Shown here: piece after piece, positions 3,551 to 42,005 of the stretch
Layout of the letters: every line of letters starts with the position of its first letter
Position numbering within the stretch: the first letter of the stretch is position 1
NCBI GenBank assembly: GCA_017421975.1
Contig: JAFOHE010000118.1
Location: forward strand, 1-42,005
Origin: Pseudomonadota bacterium
GTDB taxonomy: Bacteria > Myxococcota_A > Bradymonadia > UBA4248
Length of the DNA: 42,005 nt
Direction: 5' to 3'
Translations under genes and position numbers: made by a program
The notes under the pieces: model-generated
Databases searched by the model: none
Told to the model about the DNA's origin: nothing
Seen by the model: the letters and a program-made list of their open reading frames with translations, nothing else

Positions 3551-3652
3551 GGGGAGAACGAGGGGGTAGCGGCGTATTTTCTGCAAGCAGAGACGTGTCG
3601 TGACACGGTCTCTGATTGCGGAAAATAGCCGCGTAGGGGGAGGCTTCCCCCG
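3551..3652. repeat. Palindromic element A (variable-core bulged hairpin)
   Basis: The left arm is GGGGAGAACGAGGGGGTAGC, the same as in element D. Then comes GGCG, a long imperfect palindrome beginning TATTTT and ending AAAATA, then GCCGCGTAGGGGG and a small G/C hairpin GGGGG-aggctt-CCCCC. In the minus-strand reading a single C is unpaired just outside ATA. It lies 3' of the minus-strand lipoprotein gene, beyond its terminator. Confidence 0.8.
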
Positions 3653-17656: not shown

Positions 17657-19753
17657 ATGGCGTTTATTAAAGAAAGTGCAATGCTGGGCAATCACGAAGT
17701 CTCCATCGAAACTGGTCGTATGGCAAAACAGGCTTCAGGTGCAGTTCTCATTCAGTGCGAAGAGACGATGGTTCTCGTGACATGCTGCACAAAGGCTTGC
17801 GACCACAGTGATCAGGACTTCTTCCCATTGACGTGTGAATACATTGAAAAAATGTATGCCGCAGGCAAAATTCCTGGTTCCTACTTCCGCAGAGAAGGCC
17901 GTCAGGGGGAACATGAAACGCTCGTTAGCCGTCTGATCGACCGCCCCGTGCGTCCCCTCTTCCCCGATGGCTTCCGCGATGAGGTTCAGGTCATTGCAAC
18001 CGTCGTCAGCTATGATCCTAACTGCGATCCCGATGTCATTGCCATTACCGGTGCTTCGGCGGCTTTGATGCTCTCCAATTTGCCTTGGGATGGCCCTGTG
18101 GCTGGCGTCCGTATCGGCCGTATTGATGGCAAATGGATTGCCAATCCCACAAACGATGAACGCGAAAAATCGGATACCGATATCGTCATGGTGGCGAGCG
18201 AGAACGCCATCGTCATGGTCGAAGGTGAGACAAAAGGTCTCACGGAAGCTGAGTTCCTCAATGCGATGGATTTTGGCTCCAATGCCGTCAAGGATGTCCT
18301 CGTCCTCCAGAAAAAATTGGCAGAAGTCGCGGGGAAACCTAAAAAATCTTTCCAGGCACCCAATCCCGATCCTGAAATAACCAACGCCGTTGCTGCCTAT
18401 TCTGATGAAACGATGAAGGCGATGACGATTCATGCTAAACTCGAACGTTATGCCGCACTTGATGCACTTCAGGCAAAAATTCTCAGCGAATTGGCCGAAC
18501 GCTTTGATGGGCGCGAAAAGGAAATCGTCGCCGCTTATGAATCACTCAAATACCATTTGATGCGCGGTTTGATTACCAATCAGCGCGTGCGTATTGATGG
18601 CAGAAAATTGAATCAGGTTCGTCCAATTACTTGCGAAGTCGGCGTCCTGCCTCGCGTACATGGGTCTGCCCTCTTTACGCGTGGTGAAACGCAGAGCCTC
18701 GCTTCCGTTACAATCGGTACGCTCACCGATGATCAGCGCATCGAAGCCCTCGATGGAACACATTCAAAGCGCTTTATGCTCCACTATAATTTCCCACCGT
18801 TCTCCGTCGGTGAAGTCAAAGCACTGCGTAGCCCCGGAAGACGCGAAATCGGACACGGTATGCTCGCTGAACGCGCTTTGACGCCCGTCATGCCGACGAT
18901 TGATCCCGATTATCCCTATACGCTTCGAATCGTTTCCGAGATCCTCGAATCCAATGGGTCGAGTTCAATGGCGACGGTTTGCGGTGGTACGCTCGCTGCT
19001 ATGGACGCCGGTCTCGAAATTAAAGCGCCTGTCGCTGGTGTCGCAATGGGACTCATCAAAGAAGGCGATAATATCGCTATCTTGACCGATATCTTGGGCG
19101 ACGAAGATCATCTGGGCGATATGGATTTCAAGGTCTGTGGTACGGAAGATAAAATTACTGCCATTCAGATGGATATCAAAATCTCAGGTATCACGCGCGA
19201 TATCATGGCACAGGCTCTCAAACAGGCGCATGAAGGGCGTAAACATATCCTGGGGTGCATGCTCAGCGCCATCGGTGAGGCTCGCAATTCGAAGAGCAAA
19301 TATGCGCCACGCATCGAAACGATTAAAGTTAAACAGGATAAAATTCGCGAAATCATCGGTGCTGGTGGCAAAAATATTAAGAATATCTGCGCTGTCTCTG
19401 GGGCGCAGGTTAACATCGATGACGACGGTACTGTGACCATCGCTTCCGATAACGGTATGGCCATCAACAAAGCCATTGAAATGATCAATGACATTATTCG
19501 TGAAGCAAAACCGGGTGACGTTTACCTCGGAACTGTGAAGAAAATTATGGACTTCGGTGCCTTCGTCGAGATCTTCCCCGGTACGGATGGTATGGTGCAT
19601 ATTTCTGAACTCACGGAAGGACACGTCGATAACGTCACCGATATCCTCAAAGAAGGCGAACAAGTCCTCGTCAAAGTCCTCTCCATTGATCCACGCGGAA
19701 AAATCAAACTCTCACGACGCGCTGCCATCGGTGAACAGCCGACAAACGCTTAA
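17657..19753 (+). CDS. pnp: Polyribonucleotide nucleotidyltransferase (PNPase)
   Basis: PNPase degrades RNA 3' to 5' by phosphorolysis and is part of degradosome-like complexes. The 698-aa protein has two RNase PH-like domains (ALFTRGETQSLASVT marks the second), a KH domain with IREIIGAGGKNIK (about residues 560-572), and a C-terminal S1 domain (GDVYLGTVKKIMDFGAFVEI ... DGMVHISEL). The length is normal. I chose the ATG at 17657, five bases after AGGAG. The in-frame GTG at 17651 lies inside that site. Confidence 0.97.
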   Translation: MAFIKESAMLGNHEVSIETGRMAKQASGAVLIQCEETMVLVTCCTKACDHSDQDFFPLTCEYIEKMYAAGKIPGSYFRREGRQGEHETLVSRLIDRPVRPLFPDGFRDEVQVIATVVSYDPNCDPDVIAITGASAALMLSNLPWDGPVAGVRIGRIDGKWIANPTNDEREKSDTDIVMVASENAIVMVEGETKGLTEAEFLNAMDFGSNAVKDVLVLQKKLAEVAGKPKKSFQAPNPDPEITNAVAAYSDETMKAMTIHAKLERYAALDALQAKILSELAERFDGREKEIVAAYESLKYHLMRGLITNQRVRIDGRKLNQVRPITCEVGVLPRVHGSALFTRGETQSLASVTIGTLTDDQRIEALDGTHSKRFMLHYNFPPFSVGEVKALRSPGRREIGHGMLAERALTPVMPTIDPDYPYTLRIVSEILESNGSSSMATVCGGTLAAMDAGLEIKAPVAGVAMGLIKEGDNIAILTDILGDEDHLGDMDFKVCGTEDKITAIQMDIKISGITRDIMAQALKQAHEGRKHILGCMLSAIGEARNSKSKYAPRIETIKVKQDKIREIIGAGGKNIKNICAVSGAQVNIDDDGTVTIASDNGMAINKAIEMINDIIREAKPGDVYLGTVKKIMDFGAFVEIFPGTDGMVHISELTEGHVDNVTDILKEGEQVLVKVLSIDPRGKIKLSRRAAIGEQPTNA

Positions 19754-26438: not shown

Positions 26439-26562
26439 GGGGTGTTGCGGGGGATTTGCCCCCGCAGAGGGGGTAGCGGTGTATTTTGAATTGTGCTAGA
26501 GACGTGCAGTTCGTGCGTCTCTAGCACAATTCAAAATAGCCGCGTAGGGGGAAACTTCCCCC
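26438..26562. repeat. Palindromic element E
   Basis: GTTGCGGGGG...CCCCCGC forms a first hairpin. GAGGGGGTAGCGG follows, then a 23-bp perfect core beginning TATTTTGAATTG and ending CAATTCAAAATA, then GCCGCGTAGGGGG-aaactt-CCCCC. This is the longest core in the window. Its orientation relative to the upstream gene is opposite to A, C, D, F, G and H. Confidence 0.85.
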
Positions 26563-29708: not shown

Positions 29709-29783
29709 GGGGGGCGGCCTATTGGCTTACGCAATACGGCCGCCTGCGTCGGCTATTGGCGGCAAAGCCACCAATACGCCGAC
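29709..29783. repeat. Palindromic element G (two hairpins, divergent arms)
   Basis: The first hairpin is GGCC-TATTG ... CAATA-C-GGCC (about 29716-29742). The second is GTCGGC-TATTGGCGGC-aaa-GCCACCAATA-C-GCCGAC (29748-29783), with one mismatch in the core. Both have the unpaired C just outside ATA, as in the other elements. The G-rich GTAG arms are missing. It lies between the convergent mrdB and PrcB-like lipoprotein genes. Confidence 0.75.
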
Positions 29784-29809
29784 GATTTGATATTGCAAAA
29801 GCGCGTGGA

Positions 29810-32051: not shown

Positions 32052-33242
32052 CTATTTCTTCGCTTCCTTCGCTTTTTTTTCGGCGTCTTTCTTGACCTGA
32101 TCTGTTGTCCAATCTCCAGGCGTTTGTAATTTGGCAGGTTTGAGAACCTGAACGCTGACTTTGCCTTTAATTTCTCCCTTAAAGACCTCGGTTCCATTTT
32201 TATCTTTTACAAAGCAGTCTTTTGTACTCAACGATGGACGACCGTTTGTCAACAATTCTTTCATATCGTCGATATCTTTATCTTCAAAATCGTCGACAGC
32301 GAAATTAAAGCAAGCCTCGGGTTGTAATTTGATGGTTGGAACCATCAATTCGGATTCAGAATTTTTGACATTTTCTGCTATGGCAGTTTTCTTGATATCG
32401 TTATTGGCGTGTTTGGCTGTTTGCTCTTTGTCTTCGACCCACGTCATCATGCCTGGCAGATTGAGTGGATTGGCTCCATTCATGTCGCCATTGGCTGTAA
32501 ACAAAGCGCTTTCGCCATTGGATTTCGTTTTGTTGTTTGCATTGCGGATGAACTCGGGCGAGTAGACGTATTGGTACATACCTGTTTCGAATTTTGATGC
32601 CTTAAGTCCTTTGGCCAGAGCGACTTTTTTGGCATTCTCAGCCGTAATATTCGATGAAGCGGCAGGAGTGTATTTTTTTCCGATCAGCTTTTTCAGATTA
32701 ATGCCCTGGGTGTTGAAAATATCAATGTCCTCTTTAAGACTGGTGACAAAGTTGCCCTCATCGCGTCCGATCTGTTTCCATAGGCCAAAGGCATTGAGAA
32801 TGTCCCAGCCATTGACGATGGCTGAGGCTCCCGTCGTGAGGTAGTTTTGTTTGACCTCATTTTTCTTTTGTGCGGTGTATTGGTATTGCGCATGAATGTA
32901 TTGATCATAAAAAGCATAGGCTGGATTGGCTTGGTATTCGGGGTTGGAGTTATCGACAACGATTCGATTTTCGTCAATGGCCTTTTTGCAGTACGAAGGC
33001 ATGGTCTGCATAAACCGTGCCTTGGAACCGTCGTCTTTGGGTTTGCCCGCATCATCTTTCCAGCCTGAACGTACCGCTCTTACATCATATTGGTCTGAAA
33101 TCTTATCACGGCGTTTTAGGAAGGCTTCATTGCATTGTTTTAGGCTGATACCACGCTTCACTGCCGGCTCTTTGGCAGCAGGATTTGTGCCGGTGGGTTT
33201 ACCTTCTTGGGTGAAGGCCTGTTTGTTGTCAAGTGTATTCAT
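32052..33242 (-). CDS. Lysine-rich protein of unknown function
   Basis: The 396-aa product is hydrophilic, rich in Lys, Asn, Asp and Ala, with four cysteines. It has no signal peptide, no membrane segment and no family I recognise. Segments such as QYIHAQYQYTAQKKNEV and the Lys/Ala tail KKDAEKKAKEAKK are helical. AAGGAG lies 7 bases before the ATG and a perfect -10 TATAAT lies about 25 bases before it, so it is a real, expressed-looking gene. AT-rich surroundings and flanking repeats suggest acquisition. A secreted effector is possible but unproven. Confidence 0.65.
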   Translation of the reverse strand: MNTLDNKQAFTQEGKPTGTNPAAKEPAVKRGISLKQCNEAFLKRRDKISDQYDVRAVRSGWKDDAGKPKDDGSKARFMQTMPSYCKKAIDENRIVVDNSNPEYQANPAYAFYDQYIHAQYQYTAQKKNEVKQNYLTTGASAIVNGWDILNAFGLWKQIGRDEGNFVTSLKEDIDIFNTQGINLKKLIGKKYTPAASSNITAENAKKVALAKGLKASKFETGMYQYVYSPEFIRNANNKTKSNGESALFTANGDMNGANPLNLPGMMTWVEDKEQTAKHANNDIKKTAIAENVKNSESELMVPTIKLQPEACFNFAVDDFEDKDIDDMKELLTNGRPSLSTKDCFVKDKNGTEVFKGEIKGKVSVQVLKPAKLQTPGDWTTDQVKKDAEKKAKEAKK

Positions 33243-33305: not shown

Positions 33306-33437
33306 ATAAAAATCAAATGTTTCTCGCGTCAGCAGTGACCATTCCGCATAATGGTGAATTAAACTACATGTAGGTGTGTTAATAATCCCCCACTTGTAAT
33401 AATCCCCCACTTGTAATAATGCCCATCGTGTATCCCT

Positions 33438-33520
33438 CGTTACGGTCAAAGTGCGATTTTTTATGTTTGTTCAAGTAAAATAAAATATTTTATCTGAACA
33501 AGTAATAAAAAAGCGTAACG
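33438..33520. repeat. GTTCA repeat, copy 2
   Basis: CGTTACG ... GTTCA ... TGAAC ... CGTAACG makes an overall inverted repeat of about 83 bases with an AT-rich centre. It resembles copies at 31237 and 33775. Confidence 0.55.
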
Positions 33521-33642
33521 TCGTGCGATGTCTTGGCATTAATTTAAGTGGGGGTCGAGCGATAGACCTACATGCAGGTGTGTTGATAATCCTCTGATTG
33601 AAATAATGCCCTTTGCGCTTAGGAGTTCAATCATCACAAATT

Positions 33643-33720
33643 GGGGCGTTGCGGGGTAAAACCCCGCACAGAGGGTAGCGGCGTATGGCAAAGCCATAGC
33701 CGCGTAGGGGGCTTTCCCCC
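33643..33720. repeat. Palindromic element F (short core)
   Basis: GGGGCGTTGCGGGG-taaaa-CCCCGC, then GAGGGTAGCGGCG, the short core TATGGC-aaa-GCCATA, GCCGCGTAGGGGG and CCCCC. The frame is complete but the core is only 6 bp. It lies 128 bases past the truB stop. Confidence 0.85.
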
Positions 33721-38901: not shown

Positions 38902-38933
38902 CAAGACAGGCCTTCTCGCCATTGGATGTCCTC

Positions 38934-40397
38934 ATGATTCCTCAGCATCATTACGTTTCCTGTGTCGGATGCGGTACGCGCGTCCATGCTTACGATTACG
39001 CCACTTTCAGTTGCCCAAACCGCGACGATCTGCCTGAAGCAAATCACATTCTTCAGAAAAAACACATGATCACTGCGGCTCTTTGGCAACGCAGTGAACT
39101 CGAAGATTCCAAAAATCCTTTTGTCCGATATCGTCATCGTCTCTTAGGTTATCATCGGACGCTTAACGCACGACACTCCGATGTCGATTACCTCGAACGC
39201 ATCGCTCAGCTCGATGGCGCACTTAAAGCAATCGACGGAAGAACGTTCTCCGAAACGCCTATGTCGATTGAACGTGAACTCGCCGATGCCATCAATCTCG
39301 CGCCCACGCAGAATCTTTATGTTAAAGATGAAACGAATAATGTCGCAGGCTCACATAAAGCGCGTCATTTGTTCGGAATCTTGCTCAATCTTGCACCTGA
39401 ATCGCTCAAAAAACCTTTTGCTATCGCAAGTTGCGGTAATGCTGCGCTCGCCGCTGCTGTCGTCGCAAAAGCCGCTGGCGCAAAACTCGAAGTCTATATC
39501 CCGACGGATGCAGAACCCTCTGTCGTCGAAAAATTAAAATCTCTCGGCGCAAATCTCCACATCTGCGAACGCGTCGATGGACAATTGGGTGATCCTTGCT
39601 ATCTCCAATCACTTGAAGCTGTCAAAAATGGCGCGATTCCTTTTACTTGCCAGGGACCCGATAATGGACTGAGTATCGAAGGGGGCTCCACACTCGCTTA
39701 CGAAATCTTCGATTGGTGGAAAGCAAATAAATATGATTGCCATCACATGTTTGTTCAGGTCGGTGGCGGCGCGCTTGCTTCAAGCTCCGCTCAGGCTCTC
39801 GCGGATGTCATGCGCTATGACCCGCTTAACAATCTCCCGCGTTTCCATACTGTTCAGACGCGTGGTGCGTTCCCGCTCGCTCGCGCTTACGATCGCGTTG
39901 TCAAACTCATCGATGCGAGACTCAAAGGATTGCCTTTGCCTGACCTTAAACCCATGACCGATGACATGGAACCTGCTCTACGCGCTGAAATGCACAGCGT
40001 CGCTGCAGTCCAGGAGCGACTCACAATGGCAGATTGCATCCGCTCTGCTTGGGATTCCACGGAGGTGCAGTCCGTCATTCGTATCGCCGCAAATCGAAAA
40101 AATATTTTCATGTGGCCTTGGGAATCCACACCACATTCCGTCGCACATGGCATCCTCGATGACGAAACTTACGATTGGTTCGCTATCCTCTGCACCATGT
40201 TGCGAACAGGCGGCATCCCACTCGTCGCAGACGAAGAACACCTCGTCCGCGCACACGAACTCGCACACAATTACACCGCAATTCGACCTTCCGCTACTGG
40301 CTCTGCCGGTTTGGCTGGCGTCATGCTCATGAAAGAAGCAAACGCAATTCCCGATTACGAAAATATTCAGATCTATTTTACGGGGATAGAACGCTAG
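38934..40397 (+). CDS. Threonine-synthase-like PLP enzyme
   Basis: This 487-aa fold-type II pyridoxal-phosphate enzyme may be a threonine synthase or a related lyase. It has an N-terminal cysteine knuckle (C10-V-G-C13, C27) as in threonine synthases, the PLP lysine K142 in AGSHKARH, the SCGNAALAAAV loop and a phosphate-binding GGGALASS. The C-terminal STEVQSVIRIAANR and STPHSVAHGILDDETYDW regions are not standard short threonine synthase sequence, so the substrate is uncertain. I chose the ATG at 38934, with GGAT 7 bases upstream, over the in-frame TTG at 38922. Element H follows 20 bases after the stop. Confidence 0.8.
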   Translation: MIPQHHYVSCVGCGTRVHAYDYATFSCPNRDDLPEANHILQKKHMITAALWQRSELEDSKNPFVRYRHRLLGYHRTLNARHSDVDYLERIAQLDGALKAIDGRTFSETPMSIERELADAINLAPTQNLYVKDETNNVAGSHKARHLFGILLNLAPESLKKPFAIASCGNAALAAAVVAKAAGAKLEVYIPTDAEPSVVEKLKSLGANLHICERVDGQLGDPCYLQSLEAVKNGAIPFTCQGPDNGLSIEGGSTLAYEIFDWWKANKYDCHHMFVQVGGGALASSSAQALADVMRYDPLNNLPRFHTVQTRGAFPLARAYDRVVKLIDARLKGLPLPDLKPMTDDMEPALRAEMHSVAAVQERLTMADCIRSAWDSTEVQSVIRIAANRKNIFMWPWESTPHSVAHGILDDETYDWFAILCTMLRTGGIPLVADEEHLVRAHELAHNYTAIRPSATGSAGLAGVMLMKEANAIPDYENIQIYFTGIER

Positions 40398-40416: not shown

Positions 40417-40526
40417 GTTCTGCCTATGCCTGCGGCATACGGCAGAACGCGTACGCTATGGTCTATGACCATACGCGTACGCCAAAACTGCTATTTCAGT
40501 GCTACGCTCTGAAATACGCAGTTTTG
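40417..40526. repeat. Palindromic element H (three contiguous bulged hairpins)
   Basis: Three hairpins abut exactly. The first is GTTCTGCC-TATGCC / GGCATA-C-GGCAGAAC (40417-40448). The second is GCGTACGC-TATGGTC / GACCATA-C-GCGTACGC (40449-40482). The third is CAAAACTGC-TATTTCAG / CTGAAATA-C-GCAGTTTTG (40483-40526). Stems differ completely, yet each has TAT...ATA and one unpaired C outside ATA. The G-rich arms of the other elements are absent. Confidence 0.85.
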
Positions 40527-40540
40527 ATACTCTGCTTAAG

Positions 40541-40572
40541 ATATAAATATATTTTATATAATATATTTATAT
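40541..40572. repeat. AT-only inverted repeat
   Basis: ATATAAATATATT and AATATATTTATAT are perfect reverse complements around a 6-base loop, about 170 bases upstream of the ATP-grasp gene. Confidence 0.7.
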
Positions 40573-41694: not shown

Positions 41695-42005
41695 CCATCG
41701 TCGTAAGCGTATCCCCGCGTAGTCTCCATCGTCGTAAGCCTATCCGCGTGTATGTCCGTCCCCCCGGTATCCACATGCCGTGTGAAGCCCAATGCCGTGT
41801 GAAGCCCACAGCTTTGTAAGGCCGTTCCATGGAACGGCCATCGCCGTAAGCGTATCCCCGCGTGTAGTCTCCATCGCCGTAAGCGTATCCCCGCGTAGTC
41901 TCCATCGTCGTAAGCCTATCCGCGTGTATGTCCGTCCCCCCGGTATCCACATGCCGTGTGAAGCCCAATGCCGTGTGAAGCCCACAGCTTTGTAAGGCCG
42001 TTCCA
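41695..42005. repeat. Tandem repeat array, 176-bp period, truncated by window end
   Basis: A 135-base block (41695-41829) recurs at 41871-42005 with one visible change, giving a period of 176 bases. Inside are sub-repeats of 31-33 bases starting CCATCGYCGTAAGCGTATCC (41695, 41726, 41838, 41871, 41902) and a 17-base tandem ATGCCGTGTGAAGCCCA (41775, 41792). A perfect 20-bp palindrome GGCCGTTCCATGGAACGGCC (41820-41839) separates the blocks. Open frames in several phases exist across it, so it is not convincing as coding sequence. Confidence 0.85.

Follow-up and report, generated by a model that had tools for sequence, protein, structure and literature searches.

Intergenic DNA in one bacterial family (f1) carries small hairpins built to a common shape. 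An invariant junction, C-TAT opposite ATA-bulge-G, separates two free stems. The evidence consists of this junction rule, its distribution among genomes, compensated changes in the stems, three strand asymmetries and the relative orientation of neighbouring copies. We read the hairpins as an intergenic DNA element specific to this lineage and conserved in shape rather than in sequence. The sequence data suggest, at a probability of about 0.55, that it acts as a single-stranded DNA site read by a candidate protein.

In the window (the whole 42,005-nucleotide stretch of DNA that we analysed), three such hairpins stand in an array at 40417-40526, behind a gene for a PLP-dependent enzyme. The bulged base is given in brackets.

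38922-40397, plus strand: PLP-dependent enzyme gene (PF00291), directly upstream of the array and the anchor of the orthologue comparison
40417-40448, plus strand: hairpin 1, GTTCTGCC-TATGCC-TGC-GGCATA-[C]-GGCAGAAC, the top covariance-model match
40449-40482, plus strand: hairpin 2, GCGTACGC-TATGGTC-TAT-GACCATA-[C]-GCGTACGC, from the hairpin scan and the covariance model
40483-40526, plus strand: hairpin 3, CAAAACTGC-TATTTCAG-9 nt-CTGAAATA-[C]-GCAGTTTTG, from the hairpin scan

The stems are all exact. From the first to the third hairpin, the outer stem measures 8, 8 and 9 bp, the inner stem 6, 7 and 8 bp, and the loop 3, 3 and 9 nt. A single unpaired C follows ATA in each, and the spacing between hairpins is zero. 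This confirms the sequence-only reading of this DNA, which had described zero-spaced hairpins with unrelated stems and a common bulge. The array folded better than shuffled sequences, with z scores of -12 (DNA) and -10.6 (RNA). Read on the minus strand, hairpin 1 presents a GCA triloop and a bulged G, and the loop of hairpin 3 can fold further (GC-GTA-GC). An Rfam search of the window returned a single match, a tRNA, and none for the hairpins. An AT-only palindrome without a loop (40541-40572, 16-bp arms) starts 14 nt past the array.

Other copies in the window are a pair and four elements of a composite type:

29713-29744, plus strand: bulged hairpin, unit 1 of the pair, 12 nt past an FtsW/RodA-type gene
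29747-29784, plus strand: bulged hairpin, unit 2 of the pair, from the hairpin scan
3569-3632, minus strand: composite-frame bulged hairpin with a long inner segment
23348-23404, plus strand: composite-frame bulged hairpin, inner stem of 17 bp
26476-26543, minus strand: composite-frame bulged hairpin, inner stem of 23 bp, closing pair broken to C.A
33678-33703, minus strand: composite-frame bulged hairpin, CCCCCTAC-GCGGC-TAT..ATA-C-GCCGC-TACC

The composite subset is set in a sequence-conserved, G-rich frame, CCCCCTAC-GCGGC-TAT..ATA-C-GCCGC-TACCCCC. It has CTAC/GTAG at the stem foot and inner palindromes of 4-23 bp (6-23 bp in the four window copies), different in every copy. The GTAG and G-rich arms described earlier correspond to this subset and are not required for the element. 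The earlier proposal that the structural rule, and not the stem sequence or the flanking arms, defines the unit is supported. Two other repeats were seen in the window. AATAATCCCCCACTTGT repeats (33364-33611) adjoin a minus-strand gene at 32052-33242, whose protein matches an NAD glycohydrolase domain (PF07461, E 5e-17). At 41695-42005, a direct duplication of 135 bp (99%) containing CCATCGYCGTAAGCGTATCCCCGCGT subrepeats reaches the contig end and is possibly an assembly-breaking repeat.

We searched the window for hairpins of any kind that carry a single bulged base on the 3' side. TAT..ATA-C accounted for five of the eight matches. The same unbiased scan in 447 kb of G000, the genome that contains the window, gave TAT..ATA + C in 38 of 59 matches, and its shuffled control gave three matches, none of this type. 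We then counted all 1,024 combinations of closing pair, trinucleotide and bulge. C-TAT..ATA-C-G had 69 matches in G000 (447 kb), where the runner-up had 7 and the mean was 0.32. Likewise, it had 78 matches in G006, from a different genus of the same family (runner-up 5, mean 0.23). The TAT...ATA-C rule proposed earlier is genuine and genome-wide, with a core that also includes the closing pair. The exact core occurs in 174 distinct elements in 1.74 Mb; all one-letter variants sum to 11, and the commonest is CTTT (n=5).

Most outer stems have 7-8 bp (range 5-10) and most inner stems 5-7 bp (range 3-22); loops are mostly 3-4 nt, and the element measures 26-57 nt as a rule. Among 325 perfect elements, 309 had distinct sequences. 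Random pairs of elements share a longest run of 7 nt (median), and array neighbours also 7, with a run of at least 16 nt in only 19 of 133. Most arrays therefore did not arise by recent tandem duplication. The flanks (15 nt on each side) have no conserved base, and the 3' side is only T-rich. Densities were 180-290 elements per Mb; they may be overestimates, because the regions were partly picked for containing matches. The genomes are fragmented assemblies, and some orthologous regions were counted in more than one genome.

A covariance-model search found the element in all eight family genomes examined, with from at least 29 to more than 150 matches each. In a sample of 237 genomes of the phylum, only two genomes outside the family gave matches, and these were weak. 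The three matches inspected in G028, one of these two genomes, were palindromes without a bulge. The bulged hairpins are thus family-wide and nearly family-restricted in these eight genomes and the phylum sample. G028 belongs to another family of the class. Its long perfect palindromes (L080, L089 and L098, at 1490-1540) have varied outer stems around a common CTATTGC-TGC-GCAATAG, which is the same inner core lacking the bulge.

The number of units downstream of the orthologous PLP-enzyme gene varies between species; the sequence-only reading had proposed to compare it between strains and to search for other arrays. There are three in G000 and one or two in G005, G007, G003 and G006, with unrelated stems and some degenerate hairpins. 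The same spot has an ordinary terminator in G004 and nothing in G001. For the orthologue comparison we used the synteny of G003 and G006, at ~82% identity. Orthologous hairpins of these genomes keep the core and the bulge, though the intergenic flanks barely align. In 11 orthologous pairs, seven outer base pairs were compensated versus five changed on one side, with about 0.04 compensated changes expected by chance (arithmetic from the single-side rate); two misaligned G005 rows were excluded from the substitution counts. Ordinary diverging sequence without conservation of the bulges had been named as the outcome that would refute the sequence-only reading. It was not what we found, because orthologues keep core and bulge while the stems change with pairing kept. 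A gene block at 18979-19961 of L141 is relocated and inverted between species (~18620-18980 versus G005:C173 and G004:C13), and the gap before it in G006 holds three bulged elements.

The two strands of the element are not equivalent. We call C-strand the one read in the earlier work, and G-strand its complement, which carries the bulged G. Among 142 triloops, the GNA type lies on the G-strand in 75 and on the C-strand in 6. Among 58 tetraloops, GNNA lies on the G-strand in 35 (13 of them GNRA) and on the C-strand in 1. Plain hairpins of the same DNA were near-symmetrical in their triloops (20 to 26). GNA and GNNA loops produce very stable DNA mini-hairpins (PMC4686876). Arm mismatches in the C-strand reading were C.T, A.C or C.C in 52 cases versus 5 of the mirror types, and the control hairpins had 15 G.T and 13 A.C. 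On the G-strand these mismatches become G.A, G.T and G.G, the more stable ones in DNA. Finally, DNA folding energy came out in favour of the G-strand for 218 elements, against 53 for the C-strand; the tests are partly interdependent, because loops and mismatches enter the energy. The three asymmetries probably point to the folded, single-stranded G-strand, with its extrahelical G, as the selected form. For the mismatches, strand-biased mutation could be the cause instead of selection on folding, as could mismatch repair on a C-strand hairpin. The earlier idea that an extrahelical base sets the choice of strand gains from these asymmetries, with the correction that the informative strand is probably the opposite one, with the bulged G.

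The elements are almost exclusively intergenic. They overlap predicted genes in three clusters in G000 and in none in the g2 genomes, in surveyed DNA that is ~80% coding according to a simple in-house gene caller. Their position after genes might suggest that they act at the RNA level in the transcribed C-strand, as intrinsic terminators or as hairpins of the 3' UTR. In the g2 genomes, a T-rich tract follows 41% of the sense and 46% of the convergent-gap copies versus 9% of the antisense ones, and the PLP spot of G004 has its ordinary terminator. Some copies therefore serve as terminators, and the 41% figure shows an RNA role for part of the family. As an explanation of the whole family, however, this reading seems unlikely. 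In co-directional gaps, antisense copies are nearly as common as sense copies in the g2 genomes (45 and 51; 8 and 19 in G000), and copies are also present in divergent gaps, so the combination of sense orientation and T tract that marks intrinsic terminators is not general. G.U-type mismatches are nearly absent from the C-strand (4 of 59), and on the opposite strand the loops follow the DNA patterns GNA/GNNA without restriction to GNRA. Moreover, termination does not need an invariant bulge, and no Rfam family matched. The elements resemble intrinsic terminators as GC-rich hairpins after genes, in part followed by a T tract. They differ in occurring in both orientations and in divergent gaps, in their DNA-type loops, and in a bulge and core that are invariant.

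Neighbours less than 60 nt apart share their orientation in 133 of 144 pairs (133:11), which agrees with the claim that the units can be arrayed; these arrays are direct, with spacings of 0-7 nt. Between 0.3 and 5 kb, neighbours are opposite in 84 cases and the same in 19 (p = 6e-11), with 41 inward and 43 outward pairs. The trend was present in seven of the seven genomes sampled. Beyond 5 kb, 59 pairs were opposite and 36 the same, and ordinary terminators, taken as an orientation control, gave 6 and 8. The orientation rule does not track transcription. Replication-strand bias was weak and of opposite sign in two data sets. A rule that copies point away from the nearest gene was discarded, since its ratio of 35:5 in G000 fell to 39:27 in the g2 genomes. 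Homology-driven deletion of direct pairs was ruled out as well, since these have at least as much sequence in common as inverted pairs. Neighbouring paralogues of 1240-1300 aa with an ALK/LTK glycine-rich domain (L135 16031-19786; L136 4182-7907 and 8347-12249) are bracketed by bulged hairpins.

Several of these signatures and tests were defined post hoc. As a held-out check we used 335 kb of G005, obtained after the tests were designed. It holds 51 distinct elements, with GNA loops at 20:1, mismatches at 5:1 (too few for significance alone) and orientation at 13:4 (p = 0.05). This DNA agrees in direction with the loop, mismatch and orientation signatures.

REP/BIME repeats and REPtrons are also short intergenic hairpins, clustered and with hundreds of copies per genome; in some, the enzyme contacts the base of a conserved bulge, and single-stranded DNA is recognized strand-specifically (PMC8266576, PMC3733652). 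A Y1 HUH transposase (RAYT/TnpA-REP) that recognizes the bulged hairpins could likewise mobilise them as REP-type non-autonomous repeats. In G000, two lie ~25 nt past the stop codon of the single Y1 gene. Composite-frame copies have CTAC (GTAG) at the stem foot, and TnpA-REP of E. coli contacts a bulged C (PMC8266576). Nevertheless, we give this origin a low probability. The element-rich genomes G003 (99% complete) and G004 have no Y1 match, and many genomes with Y1 genes have no elements. No element lies near the Y1 genes of G001, G006 and G007, and in G005 and G007 the Y1 genes adjoin GTAG-headed CCCCCGG palindromes of another kind. A Y1/RAYT protein was thus rejected as the general cognate enzyme, being linked to elements in G000 only. 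Named relatives of the Y1 protein have 29-39% identity and are spread over phyla. REPs are sequence families with GTAG/CGTC at the stem foot. In the bulged hairpins, the stems are free and the copies share almost no sequence, the flanks have no conserved base, the tetranucleotide is not conserved (CTAC occurs only in the composite frame), and many sites are stable between species. Directly oriented arrays with minimal spacing, and carriers without a Y1 gene, are further differences from REP systems. The palindromes flanking the Y1 genes of G007 and G005 (L105/L108, ~1240-2100), of the form GTAG-headed CCCCCGG...CCGGGGG, are of the classical REP type and distinct from the bulged hairpins. PMC8266576 also describes the end hairpins of IS200/IS605 elements (IS608, ISDra2), single-stranded DNA hairpins recognised through a base that is extrahelical or mismatched. 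In contact at a bulged base, the element would work somewhat like the substrates of TnpA-REP or IS608. The bulged hairpins, however, do not lie at element ends and as a rule have no transposase nearby.

The sequence-only reading had compared the array with integron attC sites. These are sequence-diverse palindromes that function as a single folded strand, which is selected by extrahelical bases (PMC2727003, PMC3053210). In an integron-like system, an enzyme would recombine folded strands at the hairpins, so that direct pairs are deleted and inverted ones survive. The strand-specific fold with an extrahelical base, which governs strand choice in attC (PMC2727003), the sequence-free stems, the direct arrays and the depletion of direct pairs around genes would all fit. 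Even so, an integron-like system is improbable. No integron integrase (TIGR02249) was over the cut-off in the eight family genomes, and the weak matches are general tyrosine recombinases, because they also occur in all 14 control genomes. The R' and R'' boxes (RYYYAAC / GTTRRRY) are absent, the only conserved core being C-TAT/ATA-C-G. An attC site has 57-142 nt, R boxes, two or three extrahelical bases, and cassettes and IntI beside it; the bulged hairpins are shorter, with one bulge and no cassette. Genes inside inverted pairs, inward and outward alike, include TGT, RsmB/F, PTA, SHMT, thymidine kinase and a Mur ligase. They are largely housekeeping where a family was recognised, which ruled out mobile gene cassettes. 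The attC comparison thus holds for a possible way of working, and fails for membership.

Least probable of all is that the hairpins lack a function and owe their origin and repair to template switching in replication, with both arms rewritten together: it can create and mend hairpins and give compensated blocks (PMC8794818) and would suit a constant frame with unrelated long inner palindromes, but it would erase the bulge, which with the TAT/ATA core is the sole invariant part, hairpins persist in gaps with barely alignable flanks, and it predicts neither family restriction nor the orientation rule.

The mitochondrial double-hairpin elements of Allomyces are similar in having abutting hairpins in many copies, and are thought to be mobile (cited in PMC7218506). 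However, they are organellar. To our knowledge, no common bulge rule is known for them. We found no matching sequence-free family of bulged hairpins in the open literature. Conservatively, we file the bulged hairpins among intergenic palindromic DNA elements.

Returning to the single-stranded site, its working form would be the G-strand as 5'-stem-C-[G]-TAT-stem-GNA loop-stem-ATA-G-stem. This hairpin could be extruded, or exposed in replication or transcription. A putative protein would read the extrahelical G together with the TAT/ATA step, and the stems would merely hold the junction in place; they may drift if pairing is kept, because they only support the junction. Copies in both orientations, and inverted neighbours around housekeeping genes, suggest site pairing or a boundary role. 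We infer that the recogniser may bring two sites together, by recombination or bridging, so that direct pairs around needed genes would be lost. Alternatively, the sites may work as opposed pairs that bound transcription units. Some copies have turned secondarily into intrinsic terminators. Against this reading, the orientation rule is without a demonstrated mechanism, and no recognising protein was found among the Y1 transposases and integron integrase examined in the family genomes. The hairpins may even represent a class of genomic element of their own, and we propose this tentatively: a chromosomal repeat family whose sole definition is the shape of a folded strand (an extrahelical G between two free stems, with a GNA cap), with a dedicated protein synapsing its sites and an orientation rule around essential genes.

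Repeat families are normally recognised through shared sequence. Ordinary repeat finders would miss the bulged hairpins, because a shape and a split core of nine bases are all that their hundreds of copies per genome have in common. Similar shape-only families may be hidden elsewhere. The strand-specific loop, mismatch and energy signatures offer a sequence-only readout for the in vivo action of one strand as folded single-stranded DNA. Should synapsis or recombination underlie the orientation rule, it would point to an unknown chromosome-wide system of site recognition.
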